Below are positions 11,432 to 38,452 of a DNA stretch of 64,000 nucleotides, piece by piece. This DNA comes from Myxococcota bacterium. GTDB lineage: Bacteria; Myxococcota_A; Bradymonadia; UBA7976; UBA1532. A model generated the notes under the pieces. The model was not told the DNA's origin and ran no database searches. It worked only from the letters and a program-made list of their open reading frames with translations. Location: positions 1-64,000 of the forward strand of contig CAUJDF010000067.1 of NCBI GenBank assembly GCA_963169045.1, given 5' to 3'. Positions within the stretch are counted from its first letter, which is position 1; every line of letters begins with the position of its first letter. The position numbers and the translations under genes are program-made.

Positions 11432-12838
11432 ATGACCACCGCAGGCCGGGAACGGCCGCACGCCGAGGCGCGTGTCCTCTACCGCATCACGAAGGCGCTG
11501 CTCGACGGGCAGCAGACGCTCGAGCGCGCGCTCGGCGACGTCGTGGCGCACCTCGCCGACTTCGGCATGTCGGGCGTCGAGATCGCGGTGCCCGGGCTGC
11601 CGTTGACGAAGAAGAGGCGGCGCGGCGCCTCGCAGAGGGTGCTCGAGGACGGGCGCGCGGTCGTGTCGCCGTCGGGCTTCGTGTGCGTCCCGATCAAGAC
11701 GCTGCGGCGCGAGATCGTGGGGACGCTGAGCGTCGAGGTGCCGGCGGCGCCCGAGGACGACCTGCAGTGGGACCGGCGGCTGCTGACGGTGGTGGCGACG
11801 CTGATCGGCGAGGCCGTGCGGGCGCACCGCGACCGGCACGAGGACGCGTCGGCCCGGGCGCAGGCCGAGGCGCCGGAGATCGCGGCGCCGCCCGGCGAGC
11901 TCGTGGGCAACGCCCACGCGATGCTCGAGGTGTATCGCCTCATCCGCCAGGTGGCGCCCCACGACACGACGGTGCTGCTGCGCGGCGAGAGCGGCACGGG
12001 CAAGGAGCTCGTGGCGCAGGCCATCCATCATGCGAGCGCGCGCGCCGAGGGGCCGTTCGTGAGCGTGAACTGCGGCGCGCTGCCGGAGCAGCTCGTCGAG
12101 AGCGAGCTGTTCGGCCACGTGAAGGGCGCGTTCACCGGGGCGGTGGGCGGACGCCGCGGTCGGTTCGAGATGGCCAACGGCGGGACGCTGTTGCTCGACG
12201 AGATCGGCGAGCTGCCCCCGGCGGTGCAGGTCAAGCTGCTGCGGGCGCTGCAGCAGGGCGAGATCCACCGCGTCGGCGACGAGGCCCCGAAGCGCGTCGA
12301 CGTCCGCGTCATCGCGGCGACGAACGCGCCGCTCGAAGCGGCCATCGAGCGCGGCGCCTTCCGGGCCGACCTCTACTACCGCCTCAACATCTTCCCCATC
12401 TATCTGCCGCCCCTGCGCGAGCGGAAGACGGACATCACGCTGCTGGCCGACCATTTTGTCGGAAAGCACGGCCGGGGCCGCGTGAAGCGCATCAGCACGC
12501 CCGCCATCGAGCTCATGACCGCGTACCACTGGCCCGGCAACGTGCGCGAGCTCGAGAACTGCGTCGAGCGCGCGTGCCTGCTGTCCGACGACGGGGTGAT
12601 CCGCGCCCACCACCTGCCGCCGACGCTGCAGACGGGCGACTCGTCGGGCACGACGAAGGCCGGCTCGCTCGACGCGATGATGCGGAACTTCGAGCGCGAG
12701 ATCCTGATCGAGGCGATGAAGAACGTCGGCGGCAACATGACCGCCGCGGCGAAGGCGCTCGACACGACGCCGCGCATCCTCGCCTACCGCCTGAACCAGC
12801 TCGGGTTGTACGACCTGGTGGCGCGGCGGCGGCGTTAG
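11432..12838 (+). CDS. NifA-like sigma-54 enhancer-binding activator (GAF-AAA+-HTH)
   Basis: 468 residues from the ATG at 11432 (an in-frame ATG at 11420 would add four). Residues ~15-140 resemble a GAF sensor domain. The AAA+ domain (~155-385) has Walker A GESGTGKE at 185-192, the sigma-54 contact loop GAFTGA at 232-237 and Walker B LLLDEIGE at 253-260. The C-terminal Fis-type helix-turn-helix (NMTAAAKALDTTPRILAYRL) ends in the RILxYRLxxLGL pattern seen in NifA. It should activate sigma-54 RNA polymerase from upstream sites. Its stop overlaps that of the convergent ammonium transporter, whose upstream region carries matching promoter elements. The signal sensed is unknown, and no nif genes are in the window. 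Confidence 0.9.
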   Translation: MTTAGRERPHAEARVLYRITKALLDGQQTLERALGDVVAHLADFGMSGVEIAVPGLPLTKKRRRGASQRVLEDGRAVVSPSGFVCVPIKTLRREIVGTLSVEVPAAPEDDLQWDRRLLTVVATLIGEAVRAHRDRHEDASARAQAEAPEIAAPPGELVGNAHAMLEVYRLIRQVAPHDTTVLLRGESGTGKELVAQAIHHASARAEGPFVSVNCGALPEQLVESELFGHVKGAFTGAVGGRRGRFEMANGGTLLLDEIGELPPAVQVKLLRALQQGEIHRVGDEAPKRVDVRVIAATNAPLEAAIERGAFRADLYYRLNIFPIYLPPLRERKTDITLLADHFVGKHGRGRVKRISTPAIELMTAYHWPGNVRELENCVERACLLSDDGVIRAHHLPPTLQTGDSSGTTKAGSLDAMMRNFEREILIEAMKNVGGNMTAAAKALDTTPRILAYRLNQLGLYDLVARRRR

Positions 12839-14136
12839 GTGGTGACCCGCTCGGGCGCGTAGTGCGGGGTCGGGGCGGGGTGGGGGTGGACGACGCGGTC
12901 GCCGAGGACCGAGTCGCCGGCGTAGGCGCCTTCGGCGTGGGCGGCGAGGTCGAGGCCGACGAGCTCGTCCTCCTCGGTCGCGCGGACGGGCATCACGAGC
13001 GCCAGCGCCTTGATCAGGACGAACGTGGCGGCGGCGGCGACGGCGGCGGCGCCGAAGACGGCGATCGCCTGCACCCACACGAGGCCGGCGTTGCCGGCGA
13101 GCAGCCCGTCGGCGCCCGCGGCGTTGACCGCCTTCGTCGCGAAGACGCCGGTCAGCAGCGAGCCGACGATGCCGCCGACGCCGTGACAGGCGAAGACGTC
13201 GAGGCTGTCGTCGATCCGCGTCCTCTTCATCAACTGGATGACGAAGAAGCTCGCGCACGCGCCGAGCGCGCCGATGGCGATCGAGGCCATCGGGGTCACG
13301 AAGCCGGCGGCGGGCGTGATCGCGACGAGGCCGACGACCGCGCCGGTGGCCGCGCCGACCGCGGACGGCTTGCCCGCCCTCCACGACTCGAGGACGGCCC
13401 AGACGCACATCGCGGCGGCGGCGCCGAGGTTGGTCGTCACGAACGCGAGGCCGGCGAGCTCGTTCGCGGCCAGCGCCGAGCCGGCGTTGAAGCCGAACCA
13501 GCCGAACCACAAGAGCGATGCGCCGAGCAGCACGAACGGCACGTTGTGCGGCCGCGGGTGTCGCTTCGCGCCCTGACGCGGGCCCAGCAGCTTCGCCGCG
13601 ACGAGGGCCGACACGCCCGCGCTGACGTGCACCACGGTGCCGCCGGCGAAGTCGAGCGCGCCGAGCTTCATGATCCAGCCGCCGCCCCAGACCCAGTGCG
13701 CGAGCGGGCCGTACACGAGCAGCGACCACAGCGCGATGAACGCCACGTAGGCGCCGAAGCGCATGCGCTCGACGACCGCGCCCGAGATGAGCGCCGGCGT
13801 GATCACGGCGAACATCATCTGGAATGCCATGAACAGCAGGTGCGGGATCGTCGTGCCGTCGCGGGGCGCGCCGCCGACCCCGTTCAACCCGAGGTGCTCG
13901 AGCCCGCCGACGAGCGCGTTGCCCGTCCCGAACGCCAGCGAGTAGCCGATCGTCGCCCACAGCAGCGCGACGACCCCCATCGCGATGACGCTCATCATCA
14001 GCGTGTTCAGCACGTTGCGGCCGCGGACCAGGCCTCCGTAGAAGAACCCCAGCCCCGGCGTCATCAGCAGCACCAGCGCGGCCGAGACCAACACCCACGC
14101 GGTGTCGCCCGCCACGATCGCCGACCCCTCCATCAC
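12835..14136 (-). CDS. amtB: Ammonium transporter (Amt/AmtB)
   Basis: A 433-residue protein with about 11 membrane helices. It has the Amt signature regions LVLLMTPGLGFFYGGLVRGR near the N-terminus, GGTVVHVSAGVSALVAA with the first pore His, and FACHGVGGIVGSLLTGVFA with the second. Amt channels move ammonium or ammonia into the cell and are usually controlled by a PII protein. No glnK gene is adjacent. A GGAGAGGAG ribosome site precedes the ATG. The stop TAA shares bases with the stop TAG of the convergent NifA-like gene (TTAG, 4-nt overlap). The upstream sigma-54 promoter and paired dyads suggest activation under nitrogen limitation by that neighbour; this is inference. Confidence 0.95.
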   Translation of the reverse strand: MMEGSAIVAGDTAWVLVSAALVLLMTPGLGFFYGGLVRGRNVLNTLMMSVIAMGVVALLWATIGYSLAFGTGNALVGGLEHLGLNGVGGAPRDGTTIPHLLFMAFQMMFAVITPALISGAVVERMRFGAYVAFIALWSLLVYGPLAHWVWGGGWIMKLGALDFAGGTVVHVSAGVSALVAAKLLGPRQGAKRHPRPHNVPFVLLGASLLWFGWFGFNAGSALAANELAGLAFVTTNLGAAAAMCVWAVLESWRAGKPSAVGAATGAVVGLVAITPAAGFVTPMASIAIGALGACASFFVIQLMKRTRIDDSLDVFACHGVGGIVGSLLTGVFATKAVNAAGADGLLAGNAGLVWVQAIAVFGAAAVAAAATFVLIKALALVMPVRATEEDELVGLDLAAHAEGAYAGDSVLGDRVVHPHPAPTPHYAPERVTT

Positions 14137-14173
14137 CGCTCCTCTCCGTGGACTCGCGTTGCCGCAGTCGTAT

Positions 14174-14189
14174 TGCGAGGTGCGTGCCA
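14174..14189 (-). promoter_or_regulatory. Candidate sigma-54 promoter of amtB
   Basis: On the minus strand the sequence is TGGCACGCACCTCGCA, matching TGGCACG-N4-TTGCA with a single difference (TCGC for TTGC). Both invariant doublets (GG and GC) are present with correct spacing. The start of transcription would fall near 14163, leaving a ~27-nt leader with the ribosome site. Confidence 0.7.
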
Positions 14190-14564
14190 GTCCGTAGATT
14201 TGTGCGGTCTTGGGCTTGTCGTTGCGATTGCTGATCTAGTTGGCGACGATTTTGTCGTTGTTGGCGACGAAAATGTCGATTGCCGCTTGCTGAAGGCGTG
14301 GAGGCCGACGACGACCGGGTCGGCTGTCGTCCACGACGTCCTCCATGCACCGGCTCGGAAGTTCCGTCCCTCGGGGCACACGATGTCGTTCTGACCGAAC
14401 CTTTGACGGCCGTCGAGCATGACCGGGCCGTAGTCGAACCCGAACGCACAGCGGCGATCCGGATCGGGATCCGACGCGAGGCCGCCGAGCAACAGCACGA
14501 TGCCTTCGCCGGTGAGGCCGAAGCCGAAGCGGCCGATGAAGCGGTTGGGACGAAAAAAGCGGGC
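14190..14564. other. Upstream control region of amtB
   Basis: About 375 bp without a credible gene, noticeably richer in A and T than its surroundings. It holds the paired CGAC-N6-GTCG dyads at 14240-14278. Nothing recognisable was found between 14279 and 14564 apart from a short A6 run at 14555-14560, which would give a U-run just after the stop of the collagen-like gene, without a clear stem. Confidence 0.4.
14240..14278 (-). promoter_or_regulatory. Two tandem dyads, likely enhancer sites for amtB
   Basis: Two 18-bp direct repeats, TTGGCGACGATTTTGTCG at 14240-14257 and TTGGCGACGAAAATGTCG at 14261-14278, start exactly 21 bp apart, two turns of the helix. Each contains the dyad CGAC-N6-GTCG. 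They lie 50-100 bp upstream of the sigma-54 promoter, the normal place for an activator of that class. The NifA-like protein next door is the obvious candidate, although the half-sites are not the classical NifA TGT-N10-ACA. Confidence 0.6.
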
Positions 14565-25010: not shown

Positions 25011-28000
25011 CTACTGCTCGGCGGGCGGCTCGGCCGGGGGCAGGGGCGGCTCCCAGCCGTTGCCGGCGTTCCACAGGAACTGGCTCTCGGCGTCGCTGAG
25101 GATGCGGATCCACAGGCCGAGCGCGTCGACGACGCCGATGAGGCGTTCGCGCGTGCCGCCGAAGTGCGCGCCGACGTTCAGCTCCTCGGCGCCAGTGAAG
25201 ATGCCGTTCGCCCAGGGCAGCGTCACCGCCTGGCCGCGCACCTGCCGCGTGCTGACGCGGATGCCGAGCCGGTCGTTGACCGCGTCGTGCCACACCTCGA
25301 CGAAGTAGAACGCGCCGGCCGCGATGCGCTGCGGGTGCGTCAGCTGCGCGTAGTGGCCCGGACCGTCGCCGCCGTTGTCGGAGACCATCCACTCGATCTG
25401 GCTGCTGCCGCCGCGCAGGCGCAGCAGGTACTCGCGGCGGGAGGCGCCGTCGCGGTTCCACTTGCCGAACAGCGTGCGGTCGGCGCCGACCTCGTCGAAG
25501 CGGAACCAGCCCGCCCACGTGAAGCTGTCGCCGTAGTGGTTGACCGACCCGCCCTGCTGCAGGCGCAGGTACGCGCCGCCGCCGTTGAACAGGGCGCCGT
25601 CGCCGACGACGCCGGGCGTGGCCGGCAGGTTGGCGTCGGCCGGGAAGACCGTCAGCGAGGGACCGCCGGAGACCTCGACGCGCGGCGCGTTGCCGGTCTC
25701 GTCGAGGCGCCAGAAGGCCGTGGCGTCCCGGAGCGTGTCCGCAGGCTCGCCGACGCCCGGCGTGCAGGCCTGCAGTCCGTACTTCAGGCCGAGGTAGAGC
25801 TCGACGGCTCCCCGGTCCGCGTCGGTCAGGATGCGGTCGAACACCAGCACCTCGGCGATGGTGCCGATGAGCGGGTCGACGAACGAGTTGTTGTTGGGTC
25901 CGTCCGCGGCGCCGAGGGTCGACTTGACGTAGGCGGGCACGCGGGGGGCCGCGCCGCCGCGGCCCGCGGTGCGGCAGTCCACGCCGACCCGGCTGCGGCC
26001 TTCGGAGTCGGAGAACACGCCCGTCACGATGCGCGGGACGTCGCCGGTGACCGGCCGCGTGCCGTCGATGCGCGTGCCCCCGTTGTTCGTGTTGGCCTTG
26101 AGCACCGCGTTCCCGCCATTGATGACGAGGCCCGAGCCGTCGGTGACGAGGTCGTTGGCGGAGGTCGAGCCGGCACCGACGATGTGGCCGGCGGTGTCCT
26201 CGGTGCGCAGGACGGCGAACACGGTCTTGGGGTGGTTCGCCGCCGCGAAGAGGTGCGCCGTCAGGTCGAGGCGCTCCTGGCCCGTGAACTCCACGCCGGC
26301 GTGCTCGCCGAACGACGCGCGCCGCAGGATGGGCGCGCGCGTCAGCGCCGTCTGGAAGGCGTCGACGCCGTCGCCGGGCCAGATCTGGACGCGCTGGCCG
26401 TCGCGCAGCCCGAACAGCTCGTCGGCGCGCAGCCACATCCGCGGCTGCAGCGCCTCGACCGCGTCGCCCGTGCACGCCGTGCCGTCGCCGCCGCACTCGC
26501 CGCAGGCGTCGAGCACGGCCTCGCCGCCGAGCGTGCCCTCGCAGTCGACCGGGCCCTGCCGCTCGAGCCCGTACTTCCCGGCGAGGTAGGCCTCGACGCG
26601 GAGCCGCGTCTCGTCGTCGAGTGGTTCGGCGAACGCGATGATCTCGGCGATGTCGCCGGTGAACGGCTCGCCCAGCGCGTTGTTGTTGTCGCCGTTGCCG
26701 GCGCCGATCGACGAGACCGAGTACTGGTAGGCGTTCTGGGCGCCGGTGCCCATCCCCTCGAGGCGGCCGTCGATCCACACGCTCGAGCGCGCGTCGGTCA
26801 TGACCGCCGAGACGAGGCGCGGTGTGTTGTCGGCGACCACGAGCTCGCCCGCCACCTTCACGCCGCTGCTGTTGCTGTCGGACTTGACCCAGACCTGGCC
26901 GCCTTCGAGCGCGAAGCCGGCGCCGTAGGTCGTCGTCTGGTTCGCCGAGCCCGACCCGGTGCCGACGACGTGGGCGCGCTGGTCCTCGGTCTTCATCACG
27001 ATGAACAGCGAGCGCGGCACGACGCCACGCGCGAACAAGTTCGCGCTCAGGTCGAGACGGTCGTCGCCGTCGAAGCGCAGGACCGGCTTGCCGCCGAGGC
27101 CGTCGGCGACGAAGCGAGGCGAGCGCGCCGGGGTGCTCTGGCGGGCCTCGATGCCGCGTCCGGCCGCGTCGATCCAGCGGTTGACGAGCTGGCCCGGGGC
27201 GAGGGTCGAGAGGTCGTGCGCCCGCAGCCAGAGCGCCGGCCGGAAGTCGTCGAACACGTCGGCGCCGCAGTCGTCGCCAGCGCCGCCGCACTCGCCGCAG
27301 ACGTCGCTCGCCGCGCCGCTGTCGGGCTCGCCGTCGCACCCGCGCGGGCCGACGCGCGGCGCGGCGTACTTGCGGGCGAGGTACTGCTCGATGGCCGTGC
27401 GCTGCAACGTGTCGAGCGCGCCCGGGTAGACGATGATCTCGGCGACGTCGCCGATGAACGGCTCCGTCAGGGTGTTGTTGTTGTCGCCGTTCGCCGCGCC
27501 GATCGACGCGCGCGCGTAGTTGTACGCGTTGGTGTTGCCGAAGTGCTCGCCGGCGGGTTGGCCGTCGACGAAGATCGCGCTGCCGCCGGCGCGGGCGACC
27601 GCGGAGACCACGTGCCGTTCGCCGTCGTTCACCACGCTCTCGGCCGCCAGCCGGACGCCGCTGCTGTTGTTGATCGCCTTGAGCAGCGGCGCGCCGCCGA
27701 GCAGCACGAGGCCGCCGCCGTAGGTGTCGATGTTGTTGGCGCTGCCGCTGCCGGTGCCGATCACGTGGCCGCGATCGTCCTCGGTGGCGAGCACGACGAA
27801 CACCGTGCGCGGGAAACCGGCGCTCGAAAACACGTTCACGTCGAGGTCGAGGCGGTCGTCGCCGTCGAAGCGCACGACCGGACGCTCGCCCGGGCCGCCC
27901 GGGACGAACGTCGGCGCGAGGGCCGGCCGCGTCTGGCGGGCGTGGGCGTTGCCGCCCGACGCGTCCGTCCAGACGTCGACGCGCTGGCCGGCGTGCAGGC

Positions 28001-30680
28001 CGACGAGGTCGTCGGCGCGTAGCCACAGCGCGGGGGCGACCGCGGTGACGGCATCGGCGCCGCAGTCGCTCCCGTCGCCGTCGCACCGGCCGCAGGCGTC
28101 GACCACGCGTCCGCTGCCGAGGACGCCGTCGCAGCCGCGCGGACCCCGGCGCTCGATGCCGTATTGCGCCGCGAGGTGCGCCTCGATCGCCGTCCGCGCA
28201 GGCGCCGCAAGCGCGCCGTCGTAGACCACGATCTCCGCGATGTCGCCGACGAAGGGCTCGGTCAAGCCGACCGCCGTGCTGCCGGTCGCCGCGCCGATGG
28301 AGGTGCGGGTGTACGGGGCGCTGATGCTGCCGAAGGCGCGGCCGGCGGGCTGGCCGTCGACGAAGATCGACGAGTCGGCGTTGGCGATGACCGCCGAGAC
28401 GACGTGCGGCGCCTGGTCGGCGATCCCCACCGTCGCCTGGAGCTGCGTGCCGCTGTTGTTGCTCACCGCCTTGGCGAACGGGAAGCCGGCGTTGATCGCG
28501 AGGCCCGTGCCATAGGCAGTCAGGTTGTTGGCGCTCGTCTCGCCGGCGCCGAACACGTGCGCCGAAGCGTCCTCGGTCTTCAGCACGACGAACACGGTGC
28601 GCGGGAAGTTGGCCGCCGCGAACAGATGCTGCGTGAGATCGAGGCGATGCGTGCCGGCGAAGCGCACCGCGCCGTGGCCGGCGATCGCGTTCTGCACGTA
28701 CTGGGGCCGGCGGTCGGCGGTGGCCTGCAGCGCGTGGTTGTTGCGGCCGGAGAGGTCGGCCCACTGGTCGACGGCGCGCGGGCCGCCGCCGGCGAACAGG
28801 CGGTCGGCCTTCAGCCACAGCGCGAGGCCGGCGATCTCGAGCGGGCTGCCCGGCGCGCAGCTCTGGTCGTCGCCGCCGCACACGCCGCACTCGTCGAACA
28901 CGAGACCGCTGCGGACCACGCCGTCGCAGCCCTCGCCGGCGCACACCTCGGGATCGGCCTCGGGGCCGAGGTCGGTGCAGACCTCCGCCCCCTCGACGCA
29001 GAGGCGGGTACCGTTCTGGAGACACGCGCCGCGGCCGACGGTGCAGGGACCCTCGACCTCGTCGATCTCGCCGTCGCAGTCGTCGTCCTCGCCGTTGCAG
29101 ACCTCTTCGGTGGGCTCGCCCTCCACGGCGTCGCACGCGGGCTCGGCCCCGTCGACGCAGGCGATCACGCCTTCGCGCTCGCACGCGCCGACGCCGACGG
29201 CGCAGGCGTCGCCGATGCCGGGCACGTCGTCGATCTCGCCGTCGCAGTCGTCGTCCTCGCCGTTGCAGGTCTCGTCGATCGGATCGCCGGGCGTCGCGTC
29301 GCAGACCGGCTCGGGGGTCGCGCCGCAGACCAGCGTCGCCTCGCGGCGGCAGGCGCCGACGCCCACCTCGCACGCGTCGCCGAGGCCCGCCACGTCGTCG
29401 TCGGTGCCGTTGCAGTCGTCGTCGGCGCCGTTGCAGGTCTCGTCGGTCGGATCGCCCGCGACCGCGTCGCAGGTCACCTCGCCGTTCGCGTCGCAGCCGA
29501 GCACGCCGTCGCGCGCGCACGCGCCGGTGCCCGCGCTGCAGGCGTCGCCCACGCCGGCGACGTCGTCGACCTCGCCGTCGCAGTCGTCGTCCTCGCCGTC
29601 GCACGTCTCGTCCTCGGGATCGCCGGGGACGGCGTCGCAGGTCGGCGGGCCGCTCTCGCCGCAGGCGAGCACGCCCTCGCGGGCGCAGATGCCGGCGCCC
29701 GAGGTGCAGGCCTCGCCGACGCCCTCGACGTCGTCGGTCGCGCCGTCGCAGTCCTCGTCGGCGGCGTCGCACGTCTCCGCGGCCGGATCGCCGGGGATGG
29801 CGTCGCAAGCCAGCTCGCCGGTGAAGGGGTCGCAGGCGCGCGAGCCGGCGCGCAGGCAGGCGCCGGTGCCCGCCTCGCAGGCCTCGCCGACGCCGGGTGC
29901 GTCGTCCTCGACGCCGTTGCAGTCGTTGTCGAGGCCGTCGCAGGTCTCGGCGCCGGGGACGACCTCGCCCACGCACGCGCCGAACCCACCGTCGATGCAG
30001 GTGCGGACGCCGGCGCGGCACTCGCCGACGCCCGCGGTGCCCGCGACGCCGCCGTAGCACGCCTCGGCGAGCAGGTCGCCGTTCGCGTCCTCGTCGAGGG
30101 CGCCGTCGCAGTCGTCGTCGGCACCGTTGCAGGTCTCTTCGGGCCAGGCGCACGCGGACCACTCGCCGGCGACGCACGTCTGCACGCCGCCGCCGCACGG
30201 ATCGTCGGGGCAGGCGCGCGTGTCGTCTTCGGCGCAGGCCGGGCCGGCGTCGGGATCGGGGACGTCGGCGTCGGGCGGAACGGCGTCGGCGACCGTGGCG
30301 TCGTCGGGCGAGGCGTCGGGGAGCGCGGCGTCGCCGGGCGCGGCGTCGCCGGGCGCGGCGTCTCCGGGCGCGGCGTCGCCGGGCGCGGCGTCGCCGGGCG
30401 CGGCGTCGGGCAGGGCGCCATCGGGCGGCGCGGCGTCGGGCGGCGCGGCGTCGGGCGCGGCGGCGTCGGGCGTGGCGCCGTCCGGCGTGGGCGGCGCCGC
30501 GTCGGGCGTGGCGCCGTCCGGCGTGGGCGGCGCGGCGTCGGGCGTGGCGCCGTCCGGCCGGATCGAGCCGTCGACGTTCGGCGCGGCGTCGGCGTCGCCG
30601 CCGGCCGCGTTGTTCTCGGCTTCGCATGCTCCGAGCGCGAGCGCCCAGACCATCCACCCGACGAGTCTCCTCCCTCGCAT
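25011..30680 (-). CDS. Giant lipoprotein with MopE-type repeats and LamG-like modules
   Basis: 1889 residues. The start at 30680 is chosen for the lipobox (MRGRRLVGWMVWALALGAC) and the GGGGGAGAGG ribosome site. A ~120-residue Asp/Ala/Pro linker (PDAAPGDAAPGDAAP-like) follows. Then come seven MopE-like metal-binding repeats, each with CNGxDDDCDGxxDD and a GVGxAC partner, about 45 residues apart. Next are four tandem ~225-residue concanavalin-like modules, each starting ALWLRADxL and including FVDGQPAG and IGDIAEIIVY, joined by Cys-rich CDG...CGxCGGDG links. A final diverged LamG domain (FTWAGWFRFDEVG) closes the protein. It should be a surface adhesin or carbohydrate-binding protein held stiff by metal-bound repeats. 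The modules are more alike within the protein than to the last one, pointing to internal duplication. Confidence 0.85.
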   Translation of the reverse strand: MRGRRLVGWMVWALALGACEAENNAAGGDADAAPNVDGSIRPDGATPDAAPPTPDGATPDAAPPTPDGATPDAAAPDAAPPDAAPPDGALPDAAPGDAAPGDAAPGDAAPGDAAPGDAALPDASPDDATVADAVPPDADVPDPDAGPACAEDDTRACPDDPCGGGVQTCVAGEWSACAWPEETCNGADDDCDGALDEDANGDLLAEACYGGVAGTAGVGECRAGVRTCIDGGFGACVGEVVPGAETCDGLDNDCNGVEDDAPGVGEACEAGTGACLRAGSRACDPFTGELACDAIPGDPAAETCDAADEDCDGATDDVEGVGEACTSGAGICAREGVLACGESGPPTCDAVPGDPEDETCDGEDDDCDGEVDDVAGVGDACSAGTGACARDGVLGCDANGEVTCDAVAGDPTDETCNGADDDCNGTDDDVAGLGDACEVGVGACRREATLVCGATPEPVCDATPGDPIDETCNGEDDDCDGEIDDVPGIGDACAVGVGACEREGVIACVDGAEPACDAVEGEPTEEVCNGEDDDCDGEIDEVEGPCTVGRGACLQNGTRLCVEGAEVCTDLGPEADPEVCAGEGCDGVVRSGLVFDECGVCGGDDQSCAPGSPLEIAGLALWLKADRLFAGGGPRAVDQWADLSGRNNHALQATADRRPQYVQNAIAGHGAVRFAGTHRLDLTQHLFAAANFPRTVFVVLKTEDASAHVFGAGETSANNLTAYGTGLAINAGFPFAKAVSNNSGTQLQATVGIADQAPHVVSAVIANADSSIFVDGQPAGRAFGSISAPYTRTSIGAATGSTAVGLTEPFVGDIAEIVVYDGALAAPARTAIEAHLAAQYGIERRGPRGCDGVLGSGRVVDACGRCDGDGSDCGADAVTAVAPALWLRADDLVGLHAGQRVDVWTDASGGNAHARQTRPALAPTFVPGGPGERPVVRFDGDDRLDLDVNVFSSAGFPRTVFVVLATEDDRGHVIGTGSGSANNIDTYGGGLVLLGGAPLLKAINNSSGVRLAAESVVNDGERHVVSAVARAGGSAIFVDGQPAGEHFGNTNAYNYARASIGAANGDNNNTLTEPFIGDVAEIIVYPGALDTLQRTAIEQYLARKYAAPRVGPRGCDGEPDSGAASDVCGECGGAGDDCGADVFDDFRPALWLRAHDLSTLAPGQLVNRWIDAAGRGIEARQSTPARSPRFVADGLGGKPVLRFDGDDRLDLSANLFARGVVPRSLFIVMKTEDQRAHVVGTGSGSANQTTTYGAGFALEGGQVWVKSDSNSSGVKVAGELVVADNTPRLVSAVMTDARSSVWIDGRLEGMGTGAQNAYQYSVSSIGAGNGDNNNALGEPFTGDIAEIIAFAEPLDDETRLRVEAYLAGKYGLERQGPVDCEGTLGGEAVLDACGECGGDGTACTGDAVEALQPRMWLRADELFGLRDGQRVQIWPGDGVDAFQTALTRAPILRRASFGEHAGVEFTGQERLDLTAHLFAAANHPKTVFAVLRTEDTAGHIVGAGSTSANDLVTDGSGLVINGGNAVLKANTNNGGTRIDGTRPVTGDVPRIVTGVFSDSEGRSRVGVDCRTAGRGGAAPRVPAYVKSTLGAADGPNNNSFVDPLIGTIAEVLVFDRILTDADRGAVELYLGLKYGLQACTPGVGEPADTLRDATAFWRLDETGNAPRVEVSGGPSLTVFPADANLPATPGVVGDGALFNGGGAYLRLQQGGSVNHYGDSFTWAGWFRFDEVGADRTLFGKWNRDGASRREYLLRLRGGSSQIEWMVSDNGGDGPGHYAQLTHPQRIAAGAFYFVEVWHDAVNDRLGIRVSTRQVRGQAVTLPWANGIFTGAEELNVGAHFGGTRERLIGVVDALGLWIRILSDAESQFLWNAGNGWEPPLPPAEPPAEQ

Positions 30681-30847: not shown

Positions 30848-31531
30848 GTGATCGAGTGGCTCGCCGGCCTCGATCTGATCGGTCTGGTGGAGGTCGCGGC
30901 GACGATTGCCGGCCTGGCCTCGGTGACCTTCACCGTGCGCCAGAGCGTGTGGTGCTGGCCGACGGGCCTCGTGATGGTGGCGCTGTACGCGTGGGTGTTC
31001 TTCCACGCGAAGCTCTACGCCGACGTGGGCCTGCAGATCGTCTACGTGTTCCTCCAGATCTACGGCTGGTGGTCGTGGACGCGGGGCGGCGCCGGGCGGA
31101 CGTCGCTGCCGGTGCGCCGCGTCCGCCGCCGCGAGGCCGCGGGCTGGACGCTCGCGGCCGCCGTCGCCTGGATCGCCCTGGTCTGGCTCCTCGTGGCCCA
31201 CACCGACGCGCGCGCGCCCCACGTCGACGCCGCGCAGACCGTGCTCAGCCTCGTCGCCACCTGGCTGATGGCGAAGAAGGTGCTCGAGAGCTGGCTGCTC
31301 TGGATCGCGGTGGACGTGCTCTCGATCGGCATGTATCTGTCGCGCGACCTGCACCTCACCGCCGGCCTGTACGCGGTGTTCCTGGTGCTGGCGACCCTCG
31401 GCTGGATGGCATGGAGCCGTTCGTGGAAGCGCGCAGACGACGCAGCGGCATGCTCCTCGGCAAGTTCCTGCCGCCCCACCTCGGACACCAGTACCTCGTC
31501 GACTTCGCGCGCGCCTACGTCGACCACCTGA
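30848..31531 (+). CDS. pnuC: Nicotinamide riboside transporter PnuC
   Basis: 227 residues from the GTG at 30848, six bases after a GGAGG site. About seven membrane helices are visible, including the PnuC signature region YADVGLQIVYVFLQIYGWW with the conserved Tyr/Trp cluster, and LLWIAVDVLSIGMYLSRDLH near the end. PnuC lets nicotinamide riboside diffuse into the cell, where it is trapped by phosphorylation. The last ~40 codons overlap the start of nadR in another frame, so the Ser/Thr/Ala-rich C-terminal tail of PnuC (ACSSASSCRPTSDTSTSS) is probably a by-product of that overlap. No obvious riboswitch was identified in the ~165-nt leader. Confidence 0.9.
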   Translation: MIEWLAGLDLIGLVEVAATIAGLASVTFTVRQSVWCWPTGLVMVALYAWVFFHAKLYADVGLQIVYVFLQIYGWWSWTRGGAGRTSLPVRRVRRREAAGWTLAAAVAWIALVWLLVAHTDARAPHVDAAQTVLSLVATWLMAKKVLESWLLWIAVDVLSIGMYLSRDLHLTAGLYAVFLVLATLGWMAWSRSWKRADDAAACSSASSCRPTSDTSTSSTSRAPTSTT

Positions 31532-32409
31532 CCGTGCTCGTCTGCTCGATCGCGCGCGAGCCCATCCCCGGCGCGCTGCGCTTCGCGTGGATGCGCGAGA
31601 TGTGCCCCGACTGCGACGTGGTGCACGTGACCGACGAGGTCCCGCAGGCGCCCGAGGAGCACCCCGACTTCTGGGACATCTGGCGGACATTGATCCGCCG
31701 CCACCTGCCCGCGGGGCCGGACTGCGTGTTCGCCTCGGAGCCGTACGGCGCGCGCCTCGCCGCCGAGCTGGGCGCCGCGTTCGTCCCGGTCGACGTCGCG
31801 CGCGCGATGGTCCCGATCTCCGGCACCGCCGTCCGCACCGATCCCATGCGCCACTGGCGCTTCATCCCCGCGCCGGTGCGCCCGTACTTCGTGCGCCGCG
31901 TGCGTCTCGTCGGCGCCGAGTCCACCGGCAAGAGCACGCTGGCGCAGCGCCTCGCCGAGCATTTCGGCACCGTCTGCGTGCAGGAGTATGCGCGCCCGTG
32001 GCTCGCGCCAAAGCCGGGCCGCTGCGATCCCGAGGACATCCCCGCCATCGCGCGCGGCCAGATCGCCGCCGAGGACGCCCTCGCGCGCCAGGCCGAGCGC
32101 GTGCTGTTCTGCGACACCGACGCGCTCACGACGCTCGTGTGGAGCGAATTCCTGTTCGGCGACGCACCGTTGTGGCTGCGCCAAGAGGCCGCCGGGCGCC
32201 GCTACGACCTGACGCTGCTCCTCGACACGGACGCGCCCTGGATCGACGACGGCACGCGCATGCACGGCGACGCCGCCGCCCGCGCCGCCTTCGGGGCGCG
32301 CTGCGTCGCGGCGCTCGAGGCGCTCGGGCAGCCGTACGTGCGCCTCGGCGGCACGTGGGACGAGCGCTACGCTGGGGCGGTGCGCGCCGTCGAAACGTTG
32401 CTGGCGTAG
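31411..32409 (+). CDS. nadR: NadR-like NMN adenylyltransferase / ribosylnicotinamide kinase
   Basis: 332 residues from the ATG at 31411 (the next in-frame ATG, at 31450, lies directly before the active site). The N-terminal nucleotidyltransferase domain has LLGKFLPPHLGHQYLVDFAR with the (H/T)xGH-type motif, and PISGTAVRTDPMRHW corresponds to the ISxTxxR motif. The C-terminal kinase domain begins VRLVGAESTGKSTLAQRLAE (Walker A) and has CDTDALTTLVWSE. No DNA-binding HTH is present, unlike the enterobacterial NadR, so it is only an enzyme. It phosphorylates the nicotinamide riboside imported by PnuC and may adenylate NMN to NAD. It overlaps pnuC by 121 nt and the convergent ligase gene by 43 nt. 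Confidence 0.9.
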   Translation: MEPFVEARRRRSGMLLGKFLPPHLGHQYLVDFARAYVDHLTVLVCSIAREPIPGALRFAWMREMCPDCDVVHVTDEVPQAPEEHPDFWDIWRTLIRRHLPAGPDCVFASEPYGARLAAELGAAFVPVDVARAMVPISGTAVRTDPMRHWRFIPAPVRPYFVRRVRLVGAESTGKSTLAQRLAEHFGTVCVQEYARPWLAPKPGRCDPEDIPAIARGQIAAEDALARQAERVLFCDTDALTTLVWSEFLFGDAPLWLRQEAAGRRYDLTLLLDTDAPWIDDGTRMHGDAAARAAFGARCVAALEALGQPYVRLGGTWDERYAGAVRAVETLLA

Positions 32410-33680
32410 GGGACGACCTTGCCCGCTTCGCCGAGGCGCGGGTCGAGCGTGATCGTCAGCGCCGCGTCCGCGCCCAGCAGCGCCCGCAGGCCGTGCTCGA
32501 GCGCGCCGACGTCGATCGCGACGCCCGGGATGGGGCGCAGGCGCAGCGCGCACGCGCCGTCGGCGGCCTGCACCAGCTCGTGCTGCACGAACGCGGCGGT
32601 GTCGCGCAGCACGCGCCCGACGTCGACGGCCTGCACCGGCGCGCCGTCCGTCGCCCGGAACGCCACCGGCGCCCGGCCCTCGAACGCGAGCAGCCGCCCG
32701 GCGGCCATCCGACCGCGGTCGCCCGTGCGGTAGCGCAGCAGCGGCACGTACGGGTTGCGCCCGCCGGTGACCGCGATCTCGCCCCACGCGCCGTCGGGCA
32801 CCGGCGCGCCGGCGTCGTCGACCACCTCGACGAACAGGTCGTGGGCGACGAGCTCGTAGCCCTCGCCGTGGGAGAACGCGATCGGCCCGGTCTCGGTCGT
32901 GGAGTACCAGTCGATGACGGGGCAGCCGAAGTGCGCGGCGAGGCGCGCCCGGAGCGCCGGCTCCAGCGTCACCGCCGTCGACAGGATGGCCGCCGGCTTC
33001 ACCGGCAGGTCCCAGGCCATCGCCTCGGCGTGGGCCGCCGGATAGCCGGTGAGCAGCCGCGGGGCGAGCTCGCCCGTGAAGCGGCGCGCCGATTCCACGC
33101 GCCATCCCGGCTGCAGGTTCACCTTCGCGAAGCCGGCCTGGTTCCACACGGTGAACACGTTCGCCAGCACGGCCGTGTGCACGTGCGCCGTGACGTTGAT
33201 GCAGGCCGCGCGGTCCGGCCCGAACGCCGGGACGACGCCGTGGCGGGCGAGGGCGCGCTCGGCGAGGATCTGGTTCTGCGCGACGGCGAGCGGATGGTGC
33301 GGGAGCCGCAGCGCGTGCCCCGTCGTGCCCGAGGTGTCGTACACGATGAGGCGCGACAGGTCCGCGTCCGGCGGCACCACGTCCACGAGGCGCGTGACCA
33401 GGTCCTCGCGCGACATCGTCGGGATCTCGTGCCACGCCGGCCGCACGCGCGCCCGGAGCCAGGGCGAGCGCTGCGCGTCGACCCACGCGTCGCGATCCCA
33501 CGCGGGGGCTGTGCGGAAGGCGTCCAACGCCGGCAGGTCTTCGGTCTGCACACGGTCGCCCGTCGTCCAGTTCCAGGCGGGCGCGTCGGCGTGCTCGAGC
33601 ATGCGCTTCAGCAGCGCGAAGCCCGCCGGCGTGATCAGCGGGTTGCGCGCGCGGCGGTCGGCGGGGACGGGATCGTTCAT
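32367..33680 (-). CDS. AMP-forming acyl-CoA ligase-like enzyme (PaaK/ANL superfamily)
   Basis: 437 residues. ANL-superfamily motifs are present: VYDTSGTTGHALRLP (phosphate loop at ~114-128), WYSTTETGPIAFS (A5), and LLRYRTGDRGRM (A7). The C-terminal subdomain is short but ends with LGEAGKVVPYASNV, where the Lys could be the catalytic one. The overall length and pattern resemble phenylacetate-CoA ligase-type enzymes. It would adenylate a carboxylate and pass it to CoA, a carrier or a protein; the substrate is unknown. Its start overlaps the stop of the upstream gene by 4 nt, making it the fifth gene of the MoxR cassette. A ligase in such a cassette is unexpected. The 3' end overlaps nadR on the other strand. 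Confidence 0.8.
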   Translation of the reverse strand: MNDPVPADRRARNPLITPAGFALLKRMLEHADAPAWNWTTGDRVQTEDLPALDAFRTAPAWDRDAWVDAQRSPWLRARVRPAWHEIPTMSREDLVTRLVDVVPPDADLSRLIVYDTSGTTGHALRLPHHPLAVAQNQILAERALARHGVVPAFGPDRAACINVTAHVHTAVLANVFTVWNQAGFAKVNLQPGWRVESARRFTGELAPRLLTGYPAAHAEAMAWDLPVKPAAILSTAVTLEPALRARLAAHFGCPVIDWYSTTETGPIAFSHGEGYELVAHDLFVEVVDDAGAPVPDGAWGEIAVTGGRNPYVPLLRYRTGDRGRMAAGRLLAFEGRAPVAFRATDGAPVQAVDVGRVLRDTAAFVQHELVQAADGACALRLRPIPGVAIDVGALEHGLRALLGADAALTITLDPRLGEAGKVVPYASNVSTARTAPA

Positions 33681-34213
33681 TCGGGGGACCAGCGGGCCGC
33701 CGCCTCCTCGGCCGCCTTGCGGCGCATCGCCTCGCGCAGCTCGCGCGCGCGCTGCTCCCGCGTCCGCATCTCCTGCACCACGCGGTCGCGCGCCACGGTG
33801 TCGAGCGTCTTCAGGCGGTCGGCGGCCTGCGCCTCGGTCTCGCCGTGCGGCCGCAGGCCGAGCGCGGCGAGGCAGGCGCGCGCGAGCTCCTCGCGGCGGT
33901 CGGGATCGTGGACGAACTGGTCGGCGGGAACGAGCCGGGCGAGCGCGTCGAGGCCGCGCTGAAGCCACGCGAGCGCCGGCGCCGCGAAGCGCCGCGCCGC
34001 GCGGAACCACGGGTCGTGCAGCAGCCACGCCGCCACGAGCACCAGCCCGCGCGCCTCGGCGGGGAAGGGCGCGACGCGCGTCATCTCGCCGCCCAGGTCG
34101 AGCGCCAGATCGAAGACCACCGCTTCGACGTGCGCGCCTTCGGCGAGGAAGGCCGCGGGACACTCCGCGAGGCGTCGCGTCAGGGTCTCGAGCGGCGGTC
34201 CCTGGTGGCTCAT
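33677..34213 (-). CDS. Unknown helical protein of the MoxR cassette
   Basis: 178 residues, soluble, without a signal peptide. The middle is hydrophobic and Trp-rich (LVLVAAWLLHDPWFRAARRF), followed by FVHDPDRREELARACLAALG. The last ~50 residues are a charged helix, likely coiled coil (RVVQEMRTREQRARELREAM). I recognise no family. The gene is locked between the metallopeptidase-VWA gene and the ligase gene by 4-nt overlaps at both ends, so the product is probably made in fixed ratio with them and may be an adaptor. Confidence 0.7.
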   Translation of the reverse strand: MSHQGPPLETLTRRLAECPAAFLAEGAHVEAVVFDLALDLGGEMTRVAPFPAEARGLVLVAAWLLHDPWFRAARRFAAPALAWLQRGLDALARLVPADQFVHDPDRREELARACLAALGLRPHGETEAQAADRLKTLDTVARDRVVQEMRTREQRARELREAMRRKAAEEAAARWSPE

Positions 34214-35910
34214 CGACCCTCCCGCTGCGCTTCGTAGTGGCGCCGGCTGAAAGCCCGCGCGAAGGCGACGAGCTCCTGCTGGGTGCTCACGAGGTGCACG
34301 TCCCAGCCGATCGCCCGCAAGCGCTCGATGCGCACCGCATGGTACGCGGGGTTGGGGATGTTCAGGACGAACGTCGCGCCGCCGCCGGCGACCTCGGCGG
34401 CGCGCTTCGCGATCTCCCAGCCGTCCTTCACCTGCCCGAGCATGTGGAAGATGTCGGCGTCGGTGACGACGAGCACATGGGTGGGGCGCGCCGGCGGCTC
34501 GGGCCCGAGGAAGGTGTCTTGCAGGCGCAGCACGCCGAACGAGTAGCCGGTGCCGAGGTAGCCGGTGAGCACACCGAGCACGCGCTTCTCGTCGCGCAGG
34601 AAGCCATCCGTCTCGGTGTGTTGGCCCGGCTCGCCCGACAGGCATGCCATCACGCGCGCGCCGGCCCGCAGCGCGGAGAGCGTGACGATGGCGCCGGCGA
34701 GCACCGGGTACGACATCGCCAGCTTCGGGTTGCTCATCGAGCCCGAACAGTCGACGCCGAGGTACAGATCGACCGGCACCCGCGCCGGCTGGCCCCCCGC
34801 CGTCGTCCCGTACACGCGCTCGTACGTCGTGTAGCCGGGGATCACGTGCGGGCTGCGCACGAGCGACTGGATCCAGTCGATCTGCGCCACCGGCGAGCCC
34901 ACGTCCCACACGTCGAGGCCCTCGGGCAGCGGATCCTCGGCCTGCTGCGCCAGCCGCGCCGGGAAGCGCACCAGGTGCGGCACCGCGAGCTCGCGGTAGT
35001 AGCGGATGACGAGCTCGCGCTCGTCGATCTCCACCCCGAGGCTCTTCATCAGGTCCACGTACTGCGTCGGCTCGCGGTGCTGGTTCTTCACGCCGCCCAC
35101 GGTCTCGCCTCCGCCGAGGGACGCGCCGCCGAGCGCCGGATCGAACGCCGGGTGCACGGGGGCCTCCTCGTCGTCTTCGAGGTCGGCGAGCCCCTCGGGG
35201 ATCTGTTCGCCGGCGCCGGCGCCGACCGCGTCGAGCCAGGGGGTGAACGCCCCGCGCTCGTCGTCGGGGCGCTCGAGCAGGTAGGTCAGGCACAGGACGG
35301 CGAAGGGACCGGCGCCGCGGACCCAGTCGCGGGCGTAGGAGCGCACGAGGCGCGCCGCGAGGGCGGCGTCGACCTGCTGCTCCTCGGTGAGGTCCGCGTC
35401 GATCAGGGTGCCCGAGGGCAGGCTCCACAGCACCTCGTAGATGCGCAGATAGACCTGCCACAGGCGGTCCGCGCTCGGCGCCTTCAGCGCGCGATAGACG
35501 CCTGCCATGTCGAGGCCCGCGCTGCGCTGCAGGCGGTCGTTGATCAGCAGGTCGGCGTACAGATTGGCGACGAGGCCGGCGTCGCGCTCGCGCGAAGGCA
35601 GGCCGGCGCGGACGCGGGCCAACAGACGGGCGTTGTCGCGCAGGTCGGCCGGCGCGTACACGTGGTGGCCGATCTCGTGGGCCAGGATCTCGACGCCGAA
35701 GGCATGCAGCCGGTGGGCGGCCACCTGGCGCAGGCTGATGACCACGGCGTGGTCGTCGAGGCGGATCATCGCGAACGAGCCGGTGAGGTCTTCGCGCACC
35801 TCGTCGGCGAGGGTGTGGCAGAAGCGGGGCGGCGCGAGCTTGGTGAACGGGCTCCACGCCGCCAGCGCGCGCGGCCAGCAGTCGAGCCAGGCTTGCTCGA
35901 GGTCGCTCAT
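34210..35910 (-). CDS. HEXXH metallopeptidase-like / VWA domain protein (DUF2201-like)
   Basis: 566 residues, cytoplasmic. The N-terminal part carries EILAHEIGHHVYAP, a zinc-protease HEXXH motif at 78-82. The C-terminal part has a von Willebrand A fold with the metal-site sequence YLGVDCSGSMSNPKLAMSYP (DxSxS) near residue 390 and VLVVTDADIFHML as the later strand. The middle, ~195-330, is acidic. This order, putative metallopeptidase then VWA-like domain, is that of the DUF2201 family, which is commonly found next to MoxR ATPases. It is thought that the AAA+ partner remodels targets that the VWA protein recruits. Here the MoxR gene is two places upstream in the same overlapping set. Confidence 0.85.
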   Translation of the reverse strand: MSDLEQAWLDCWPRALAAWSPFTKLAPPRFCHTLADEVREDLTGSFAMIRLDDHAVVISLRQVAAHRLHAFGVEILAHEIGHHVYAPADLRDNARLLARVRAGLPSRERDAGLVANLYADLLINDRLQRSAGLDMAGVYRALKAPSADRLWQVYLRIYEVLWSLPSGTLIDADLTEEQQVDAALAARLVRSYARDWVRGAGPFAVLCLTYLLERPDDERGAFTPWLDAVGAGAGEQIPEGLADLEDDEEAPVHPAFDPALGGASLGGGETVGGVKNQHREPTQYVDLMKSLGVEIDERELVIRYYRELAVPHLVRFPARLAQQAEDPLPEGLDVWDVGSPVAQIDWIQSLVRSPHVIPGYTTYERVYGTTAGGQPARVPVDLYLGVDCSGSMSNPKLAMSYPVLAGAIVTLSALRAGARVMACLSGEPGQHTETDGFLRDEKRVLGVLTGYLGTGYSFGVLRLQDTFLGPEPPARPTHVLVVTDADIFHMLGQVKDGWEIAKRAAEVAGGGATFVLNIPNPAYHAVRIERLRAIGWDVHLVSTQQELVAFARAFSRRHYEAQREGR

Positions 35911-36872
35911 CGCGTGGCCGCCACGAGGAACACTTTGTGGCTGTGCGGCAGCGTCACCGCGAGCGTGTCGTCGGTGGCGGCGAGGCTGCTCGGGCCGGCG
36001 AGCCCGACGACGCGGCCGCCGAGGCCGCGCCAGAAGACGAAGCCGGCGGCGTCGACCATCGCCTGCGCCGGCGCGCCGGCCGGCGGCGCCGTGCCGTGGC
36101 GCTGGCACGTGGCCCCGAAGGCGTCGGCGTGCAGCGAGAAGCAGGCCTCGCCGTCGTGGGCGAACAGACGGCCGCCGGTGGCGACGACGCGGGGCGGGGC
36201 GCCGAAGGGACCGCCGAAGCCGCGGAAGCCGCCGGCGCTGCCGACGAGGGCGAGCGACGTGGGCTTGCCCGCGGGCGCGCCGGGCCGCCACCAGGGATCG
36301 TCGAGCGCGGCGAGCAGGTCGGCGAGCGTCGGCGGCAGCGGGACCGGGCGGCCGACGGCGACCGCCGCCATGGCCAGCGGCTCGGGCAGCCGCGCGAGCA
36401 CGGCGCGCGCGCTCTCGCGCCAGTGCGCCATGCCGCACGTCCACGCCAGCACCATGCCGGCGTCGAGCAGCTCGTCGGGCGTCGCGCAGCGCGGCGCGAT
36501 GTCGGCCATGGCTGCGATCCAGCGCGCCGGGTCGTCGAAGGCCAGCGCCGCGTTCGACAGCGACGCCACGACGCGCCGCGGCGCCTGAGCCAGCAGCGCG
36601 GCCACCTCGGGCAGCAGGTCGCGCCACACGGCGACGACGGCCGGATGCCCGAGCAGCGAGCGTGTCATCAGATCGAGCGACAGATCGTACAGCGCTTCGG
36701 TCGAGGCATCGGCGGCCTCGGCCGGCACGGCGGCGACGATCGGCGCCACGAGCGCGTCGAGGTGCTCGGCGAAGGCCGCGCCCTCGACCTTGCGGCTCGC
36801 GCGCCGCGCCTGCGCGAACTTCGCGTTGTAGCGATCGCGGCCGCGCTCGAGCGCGGCGTGCAGCGGCGTCAT
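35907..36872 (-). CDS. Unknown protein between MoxR and VWA genes
   Basis: 321 residues, no signal peptide. The first ~200 are helical (ERGRDRYNAKFAQARRASRK, later LPEPLAMAAVAVGRPVPLPP). The last ~120 are rich in Gly, Phe and short beta strands (GGFRGFGGPFGAPPRVVATG, then FAHDGEACFSLHADAFG). The C-terminal half could be propeller-like, because the known ternary systems pair MoxR and VWA proteins with beta-propeller (bpX) proteins, but it is short and I cannot confirm this. Both ends overlap neighbouring genes by 4 nt. Confidence 0.7.
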   Translation of the reverse strand: MTPLHAALERGRDRYNAKFAQARRASRKVEGAAFAEHLDALVAPIVAAVPAEAADASTEALYDLSLDLMTRSLLGHPAVVAVWRDLLPEVAALLAQAPRRVVASLSNAALAFDDPARWIAAMADIAPRCATPDELLDAGMVLAWTCGMAHWRESARAVLARLPEPLAMAAVAVGRPVPLPPTLADLLAALDDPWWRPGAPAGKPTSLALVGSAGGFRGFGGPFGAPPRVVATGGRLFAHDGEACFSLHADAFGATCQRHGTAPPAGAPAQAMVDAAGFVFWRGLGGRVVGLAGPSSLAATDDTLAVTLPHSHKVFLVAATR

Positions 36873-38452
36873 CCCTTCCACTGCAGCCACTTCAGGTAGT
36901 TGGTGTAGCGCTGGTGCAGGTACTTGAGCTTCAACAGATCGTCGTACATGTGTCCGTAGAGCTTGCGGCCGCCGCTCCACTCGCGCAGCGTGCGCTCGAT
37001 CGCGACGAGGCGGCGCCGCACCTCGTCCTCGCCGATGCCTTCGAGACCGCGGTCGAACTCGGCGGAGAGGCGCTCGACCGGGTCGTCGCGGTCGAGGCCC
37101 AGCCGGTCGTACTCGCGGCACGACAGATCGAACAGATTGCGGATCCAGCTCACGTGGTCGCTGCGCAGCGCGCCGTTGCCCGACTGCTCGAAGAACGGCG
37201 AGTCCGCGTTCTGCACCAGCTTGTCGTGCAGCACGAACGGCAGGATCTGGCGGACGTCCTCGTGGGAGACCTCGCGGTCGCCGCGGAACCAGGCCATCGC
37301 CTTCACGAACGACAGCACGGTCATGAGGGCGCGCACCGACAGACCGTTGCGCGTCTGACTGCCGAGGTCGGCCACCGCGTCCTTGCCCGTCTCTTCGCCG
37401 GCGAGCGTGTGCAGCTCGATGCCGGCGAGCTTCACCGTGTCCTTGGTCATGTATTCGACCTGGCGCGCGGCGGGCTCGAAGAACTCGAAGTGGCTGGCGA
37501 AGAACTCGATGCGGCGGCGGACGGCGGGCGGCACCGCGACCTGGCGCACCTCGCGCTCGGCGGCGTCGAGCTCCTCGGTGGTGAAGACGATCTCCGGCGG
37601 CACGACGGCCTCGGGCTTCACGCCGGCCTCGATGCGCAGCAGCAGCTCGTTGAGGAACCGGGTGTTGAAGTGCAGCGCCTTGACGACGACGTCGATGCGG
37701 TCGCGCAGCGCCTCGATGACCTGGTAGGTGCCGCCGCCGGCGTCGTCGTTGGCCGTGAGATACCAGGCGGCGTCGGGGCACTCGTAGATCTGGTCGTACA
37801 TCTCCGCGTAGTTGTCGGCCATGACCGTCAGCAGGGCCGACTGCGTGCGCGTCGGGATGCGGTTGTACTCGTCGATGATCTTGATGCGCATGCCGAGCCA
37901 GCGCCGCCACGCGATCTTGACCTCGTCCATGTCGGTGGCGTTCACCAGCGACGACGGCAGCGGGTTGCCGAGCAGGTCGGCGATGGTCATCTGCGGCTGC
38001 CCGTGCTGGATGCCGCGCTTCACGTCCCGCAGCGAGTAACCGGAGAGCACGCCCATCAGGATGGCGATCGCCGTCTTGCCTCGCCCGGGCCCACCCACCA
38101 GCAGGCAGCGCCGTCGCACCGCCAGGTTGAGCAGCGGCAGCAGGACGTAGCTCGAATAGCTCTGGTCCGAGGGCAGCGTGACGCGGATCTTCTGGTCGCC
38201 GAGCGTGAACTGCTGCGGCGGTGCCTCGTTGTACTCGATGTCGTAGAACGGGTTGATGATGGCGTGGTTGGTGACCCAGAAGTAGGCCTGCCGCAGCTTC
38301 TCGTCGAGCGGGACGGCCACCTGCGACTCGACGCCGCCCTCGTCGAGCGGGCCGCGATACAGGTCGGCGACGTCGAACGGGCGCTCGACCGGCGTGGGGT
38401 GCGGCCGGGTCGGCGCCTGGGAGACTTTCTGGAAGTGCCGCAGGATCGACAT
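36869..38452 (-). CDS. MoxR-family AAA+ ATPase
   Basis: 527 residues from the ATG at 38452 (a GTG at 38488 would add 12). An N-terminal ~110-residue extension precedes the AAA+ core. Walker A is GGPGRGKT at 120-127 and Walker B is KIIDEYNR at 191-198; the pre-sensor region reads TRTQSALLTVMADNYAEMYD and a sensor-1-type Asn is in WYLTANDDAGGG. The C-terminal ~150 residues form the lid (LSVRALMTVLSFVKAMAWFR). MoxR ATPases act as chaperones that insert metals or remodel complexes, together with VWA proteins. It is the first gene of the five-gene cassette and diverges from a TPR gene 100 bp away, so the promoter should lie in 38453-38552. Confidence 0.9.
   Translation of the reverse strand: MSILRHFQKVSQAPTRPHPTPVERPFDVADLYRGPLDEGGVESQVAVPLDEKLRQAYFWVTNHAIINPFYDIEYNEAPPQQFTLGDQKIRVTLPSDQSYSSYVLLPLLNLAVRRRCLLVGGPGRGKTAIAILMGVLSGYSLRDVKRGIQHGQPQMTIADLLGNPLPSSLVNATDMDEVKIAWRRWLGMRIKIIDEYNRIPTRTQSALLTVMADNYAEMYDQIYECPDAAWYLTANDDAGGGTYQVIEALRDRIDVVVKALHFNTRFLNELLLRIEAGVKPEAVVPPEIVFTTEELDAAEREVRQVAVPPAVRRRIEFFASHFEFFEPAARQVEYMTKDTVKLAGIELHTLAGEETGKDAVADLGSQTRNGLSVRALMTVLSFVKAMAWFRGDREVSHEDVRQILPFVLHDKLVQNADSPFFEQSGNGALRSDHVSWIRNLFDLSCREYDRLGLDRDDPVERLSAEFDRGLEGIGEDEVRRRLVAIERTLREWSGGRKLYGHMYDDLLKLKYLHQRYTNYLKWLQWKG

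Follow-up and report, generated by a model that had tools for sequence, protein, structure and literature searches.

The closest described counterparts of the gene cassette analysed here are the MoxR-vWA ternary systems that carry a peptide-processing add-on (PMC7159879). They combine a MoxR AAA+ ATPase and vWA core with a zincin-type peptidase and with a protein whose C-terminus is conserved; a subset also has a radical-SAM enzyme. They occur patchily, in bacteria of multicellular type. Our cassette, which lies in a window of 64,000 nucleotides from a Myxococcota bacterium (contig CAUJDF010000067.1), has counterparts of all of these features, the peptidase being a putative one. It consists of five genes on the minus strand that encode, in order of transcription, a MoxR ATPase, a protein termed X, a zincin-like protein with a VWA domain, a protein termed Y and a PaaK-like AMP-forming ligase (Table 1). 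In the published systems, however, the zincin is a separate protein and the conserved C-terminal motif is FxSxx, RxD or an acidic run, whereas here zincin and VWA domains are joined in one protein and the motif is (R/G/P)-Glu. An AMP-forming ligase belongs to the core, and the VMAP, iSTAND and FtsH components are absent. At the level of sequence comparison no Pfam VMAP model matches X, Y or the scanned relatives, the cassette has no gene for an FtsH-type double AAA+ or inactive STAND protein, and neither Pfam nor the structural models show an NTPase domain in X or Y. By the features tested, the module is akin to the published kind but appears to lie outside its four classes (PMC7159879).

The pairs CoxD-CoxE and RavA-ViaA have a motor and a VWA co-chaperone in common with the module. 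Neither pair is known to us to have a fused zincin, or to come with X, Y or the ligase. Our literature search found no publication that combines MoxR with PaaK, and the one paper found to cover MoxR, vWA, radical SAM and a ligase (PMC7159879) does not describe the cassette. The module is conserved and previously undescribed.

Profile searches covered 379 genomes from the phylum of the window. Many of these are fragmented, and genes in the relatives' loci were called with our own codon-usage gene caller. The VWA protein was found in 33 genomes, plus one very weak match. Ligases of the cassette type occur in 25 genomes, at 262 bits or above; the next match scores 186 bits and is followed by a long tail of ordinary PaaK-like enzymes. 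All 25 are carriers of the VWA protein (Fisher p ~1.7e-32). Y was detected by profile in 32 of the 33 carriers; in the last of them, G048, a divergent Y was recognised by eye, with a divergent ligase adjacent to it. The order MoxR-X-VWA-Y-ligase recurs in eight loci, with an insertion in a further one and interrupted by contig ends in two others, which places the cassette beyond chance. Most ligases adjoin or sit near the VWA gene; in two genomes the ligase is on another contig, accompanied there by Y-type genes. A single scan of a genome collection yielded one truncated relative only, and no relatives were found among the plasmids and viral contigs searched.

The first-pass annotation of this DNA had read the five genes as a single cassette joined by four ATGA overlaps. 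Genes and overlaps all lie where it had placed them, and the unit proved to be conserved, with the two unknown proteins and the ligase kept beside the MoxR-VWA pair in relatives. We are nearly certain that the five genes form one real functional module. The possibility that the ligase is part of a neighbouring catabolic operon was ruled out because its neighbours in the window, PnuC and NadR, are on the opposite strand and no catabolic genes recur.

The AlphaFold2 model of Y (mean predicted local distance difference test score, pLDDT, 90.9) shows a helical domain followed by a single C-terminal helix of 49 residues, long and exposed. Foldseek finds no significant match to this fold in the PDB. 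Across the alignment of relatives there is no invariant Lys, Cys, Ser or Thr to serve as a candidate acyl acceptor; the last residue, Glu178, was invariant in the initial alignment. When the tails of 28 Y proteins from 27 cassette-ligase genomes are read, 26 end in Glu, mostly as Arg-Glu, so that the motif of ligase-bearing systems is -(R/G/P)E or -ED. Of 464 further genes from these loci, 3.9% encode a C-terminal Glu, and the proportion within the MoxR, X, VWA and ligase families is 0-10%. Some lineages possess two Y-like genes, and in six such loci the Glu is present on only one of the pair.

We considered whether the ATGA overlap, or a ribosome-binding site for the next gene (GGGAG-TGA), might impose the terminal Glu. 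This origin is rejected because both Glu codons are used (GAG in 16 and GAA in nine of 27 complete genes), all three stop codons and several Arg codons occur, and the tail persists without a close following gene. It is kept where no gene follows on the strand (L036 and a second copy in L037) and where 31-157 nt separate Y from the next gene (three loci). Such variety argues that the Glu tail is selected as protein.

Seven genomes have MoxR-X-VWA-Y without the ligase, and their Y proteins do not end in Glu: four have a Lys-Trp tail and three a -GKG tail. The association between tail and ligase (Fisher 1.5e-7) is to be read as essentially one evolutionary event. The metal-ion-dependent adhesion site (MIDAS) motif of the VWA protein is intact in all seven, so the change of tail tracks the ligase and not the VWA domain. 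We judge it probable, if by no great majority of the odds, that the ligase reads the tail of Y.

The ligase has the features of a PaaK-like member of the ANL family, namely the AMP-binding motifs and a C-terminal catalytic Lys. A profile match links it to solved phenylacetate-CoA ligases (E 5e-29), and the motifs TSGTTG, YSTTET-type and YRTGD together with Lys421 are invariant in relatives. Fold family and catalytic motifs are common to it and to PaaK, F390-type ANL ligases and NF045666 (DVU_1553 family); the last is the best NCBIfam match, at 95.9 bits with a cut-off of 300, and the ligase is not a member. The cassette ligases form a clade of their own, tied to Y and the VWA protein.

Given a fixed, free C-terminal Glu on a long arm and an AMP-forming ligase with intact motifs, the simplest reading is that the ligase activates the Glu. 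Y would then be a dedicated carrier or substrate, its helical domain presenting a long helix that ends in the free residue. The ligase, using ATP, would form an acyl-adenylate, most likely on this Glu, which would be joined to an amine or other acceptor. The MoxR motor, the zincin-VWA protein and X would act jointly on Y or its loaded tail, in recognition, remodelling and probably cleavage, to give a product, and radical-SAM enzymes may modify the loaded group in some relatives. For this explanation as a whole, in which Y is the carrier or substrate, its Glu is activated by the ligase and the machine handles or cleaves it, we estimate a probability of about 45%. The narrower proposal that the C-terminal Glu is the covalent substrate of the ligase stands, in our estimate, slightly below an even chance. 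The ligase had earlier been cast as an effector that tags or loads a substrate; that idea has acquired a concrete candidate in the Glu of Y, while the tail chemistry is what we infer.

Amino-group carrier proteins of the LysW type are defined by a small zinc-binding domain and an ATP-grasp partner, LysX or ArgX. In these carriers the gamma-carboxylate of a C-terminal Glu is activated, and this reactive handle bears a loaded group that is modified and then cut off (PMC9303977). Y shares the terminal Glu, but it is a helical protein of 178 residues with no zinc ribbon, no CxxC and no detectable homology to LysW, and the module has an ANL-type AMP-forming ligase instead of an ATP-grasp enzyme, together with an AAA+/VWA machine. 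Pearlins, likewise, are assembled on and then cleaved from the C-terminus of a carrier (PMC9303977). The likeness to those pathways would lie in reactions at a ribosomal carrier's C-terminus, tailoring by radical-SAM enzymes and release by a metalloprotease; in contrast, the module has no PEARL (a tRNA-dependent ligase) and its end residue is genome-encoded. We suggest, tentatively and with the odds against us, that it represents a new class of C-terminal-Glu carrier system, with a helical carrier that has no relation to LysW or Pup, charging of its terminal Glu by a PaaK-like ligase, radical-SAM tailoring in some lineages and dedicated AAA+/zincin-VWA processing. If our explanation is correct then MoxR-VWA machines, the substrates of which are rarely known, would gain a clearly defined protein substrate whose reactive end is also defined, and an ANL enzyme would join the short list of means to activate a protein C-terminus.

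Partner genes vary among the relatives. Two radical-SAM genes follow the ligase in three loci, and what is a separate gene there is a radical-SAM domain fused to the ligase in two others (L086, 8419-10458; L087, 8335-10344). The genome of the window has no copy of this associated radical-SAM family (C6), and the five genes therefore make a complete form in its absence. The four ligase-less relatives with a Lys-Trp tail carry three shared genes in the ligase's place, encoding an unknown protein of ~215-255 residues, a radical-SAM protein and a ~300-residue protein without a Pfam match, which we take to resemble a degenerate pyridoxal phosphate-dependent aminotransferase. None of this set is present in the three -GKG loci, and the Lys-Trp tail and its three-gene set possibly represent a different tail chemistry. 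In one locus (L049) genes for a DegT aminotransferase and a radical-SAM enzyme come after the ligase, and two more (L045, L094) have genes for a glycosyltransferase and a PIG-L-type deacetylase ahead of Y and the ligase. PIG-L and DegT enzymes produce primary amines and, from what is known of these families, such neighbours fit an amide-forming role of the ligase. As a separate observation, the genes directly before Y-ligase in L045 and L094 (AsnB-like, glycosyltransferase, unknown, PIG-L) recall the mycothiol or bacillithiol pathways.

A number of points weigh against activation of the tail by the ligase. The seven ligase-less relatives form one group on the VWA tree, so that the joint loss of tail and ligase is a single event, possibly with a second change after it, and the correlation is not independently replicated. 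Two of the 28 tails from ligase-bearing systems end in Glu-Asp. In the four genomes of family f27 the ligase and MoxR-VWA-Y are on different contigs. The role of the zincin motif may be a structural one and not proteolysis. ANL enzymes usually adenylate small acids, and to our knowledge a PaaK-like enzyme that adenylates a protein C-terminus has not been demonstrated.

The Glu tail might alternatively be a docking peptide that recruits the ligase, or the MIDAS of the VWA protein, to Y, with the ligase activating a separate small acid that becomes a coenzyme A ester or is loaded elsewhere. PaaK-like enzymes normally use small acids, the closest solved relatives being the phenylacetate-CoA ligases, and acidic residues often supply the contact to a MIDAS. 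Sites of this type bind peptides via their metal ion (PMC7159879). A MIDAS ligand nevertheless fails to explain the switch of tail, since the site is intact in the seven systems with a non-acidic tail. Y has no invariant acyl-acceptor residue, and the requirement for Glu at the very last position suits chemistry better than docking. We consider docking unlikely, although it deserves to be taken seriously. If the tail only docks, the cassette would still be a new, well-delimited MoxR-VWA system in which both unknown families are strictly linked with the motor.

Read as a conflict (defence) system like the ternary MoxR-vWA ones, the cassette would have MoxR and the VWA protein set a threshold, X act as third component and the ligase and Y form a peptide effector. 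The parallel is close, in that published systems may include a radical-SAM enzyme, a zincin peptidase and a protein whose C-terminus is conserved (PMC7159879), and the distribution is patchy (33 of 379 genomes), with clades of the VWA protein crossing families f1, f3, f14 and f42. Family f27 adds a possible link to the ternary conflict systems: its Y gene is followed by one for a ~767-residue protein (L040 3419-5725; also L041 and L125) with isochorismatase, TCAD9 and DSP-type phosphatase regions, TCAD9 being the Pfam 'ternary complex associated domain'. On the other hand, PADLOC gives weak generic ATPase matches only, there is no VMAP, iSTAND or FtsH partner, an effector of toxin or nuclease type is lacking, and the tested neighbours in the window include no defence genes. 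The first-pass annotation had brought up a biological-conflict role; this was not borne out, there being no Pfam VMAP or bpX-type match, no conventional effector and no propeller fused to the VWA protein. We regard defence as improbable.

Metalloenzyme maturation in the manner of CoxD-CoxE, with MoxR-VWA inserting or activating a cofactor and the ligase and the radical-SAM enzymes producing or attaching part of it, is very improbable. In its favour, conflict-system MoxR-vWA pairs are thought to derive from CoxD-CoxE (PMC7159879), the ligase has its best, sub-threshold NCBIfam match in the DVU_1553 family and the radical-SAM partners partly resemble MoaA, a metalloenzyme maturase model and TrsS. 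Against it, the radical-SAM matches are all far below cut-offs and the neighbourhoods have no conserved gene for a metalloenzyme target.

Among the five cassette proteins Pfam recognises only MoxR and the ligase, with no match for X, the VWA protein or Y. In main-clade relatives the MoxR orthologues are 60-78% identical and have the same start residue; X orthologues are 30-44% identical. The AlphaFold2 model of X (mean pLDDT 93.5) has ten helices and then a beta domain (residues 202-321). A propeller-like third component had been anticipated for the cassette, and this is partly supported. With the slower aligner VIA-align the beta domain aligns to WD40 blades (Z up to 9.6, over 111 residues at 3.4 Å and 7% identity), whereas Foldseek finds no significant match for X in the PDB and Pfam no propeller. 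The model is consistent with a short propeller-like domain of ~120 residues and not with a complete propeller.

We treat the 566-residue protein, from its motifs, as a zincin-like domain, a putative peptidase, followed by a VWA domain. The VWA domain is C-terminal, with nothing propeller-sized after it. The zincin motifs, NLYADLLIN included, and the MIDAS motif are kept in nearly all relatives, and HExGH[H/Y] is kept in all functional copies that have the region (as HExGHY in two genomes, G378 and G287). Pfam gives weak matches among 21 relatives, to VWA_2 in four and to Peptidase_M48 in three. One genome (G008, locus L037) has a second VWA-Y pair after the cassette (12118-13893 and 13896-14495). 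Its VWA copy is degenerate at key residues (HLIGHH, DSSQAM), and the Y paired with it still ends in Arg-Glu.

Table 1. Features of the cassette in the 64,000-nucleotide window.
Feature	Position	Strand	Basis or remark
MoxR-clade AAA+ ATPase, 527 residues	36869..38452	-	Pfam AAA_3 and AAA_lid_2 above cut-off
Walker A of MoxR, GGPGRGKT	38072-38095	-	
X, 321 residues; helical domain (1-190) and predicted short propeller-like beta domain (202-321)	35907..36872	-	AlphaFold2
Zincin-like protein with C-terminal VWA domain, 566 residues	34210..35910	-	Motifs; weak Pfam matches in relatives
HEIGHH of the VWA protein	35662-35679	-	NLYADLLIN motif downstream
MIDAS of the VWA protein, DCSGSM	34735-34752	-	
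Y, 178 residues; helical domain and 49-residue C-terminal helix	33677..34213	-	AlphaFold2
C-terminal helix of Y, residues 127-175	33689-33835	-	
Tail of Y, Ser-Pro-Glu	33680..33688	-	Terminal Glu conserved in ligase-bearing systems
PaaK-like AMP-forming (ANL) ligase, 437 residues	32367..33680	-	Pfam AMP-binding above cut-off
TSGTTG motif of the ligase	33318-33335	-	
Codon of invariant Lys421 of the ligase	32418-32420	-	
ATGA overlap MoxR/X, 4 nt	36869..36872	-	Direct reading
ATGA overlap X/VWA, 4 nt	35907..35910	-	Direct reading
ATGA overlap VWA/Y, 4 nt	34210..34213	-	Direct reading
ATGA overlap Y/ligase, 4 nt	33677..33680	-	Direct reading

The genes for PnuC (30848-31531, plus strand) and the NadR-like protein (31450-32409, plus strand) are convergent to the ligase, with an overlap of 43 nt at its 3' end. 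Homologues of the NadR-like protein adjoin the ligase or the end of the cassette in three relatives' loci, two of which also have PnuC homologues; this may reflect shared synteny or a link to NAD. Elsewhere in the window, a very long open reading frame on the minus strand (25011-30653, ~1,880 residues) contains repeated Asp-rich stretches of the EECNGEDDDCDG type and concanavalin-like stretches, and its product is probably a large surface or secreted protein.

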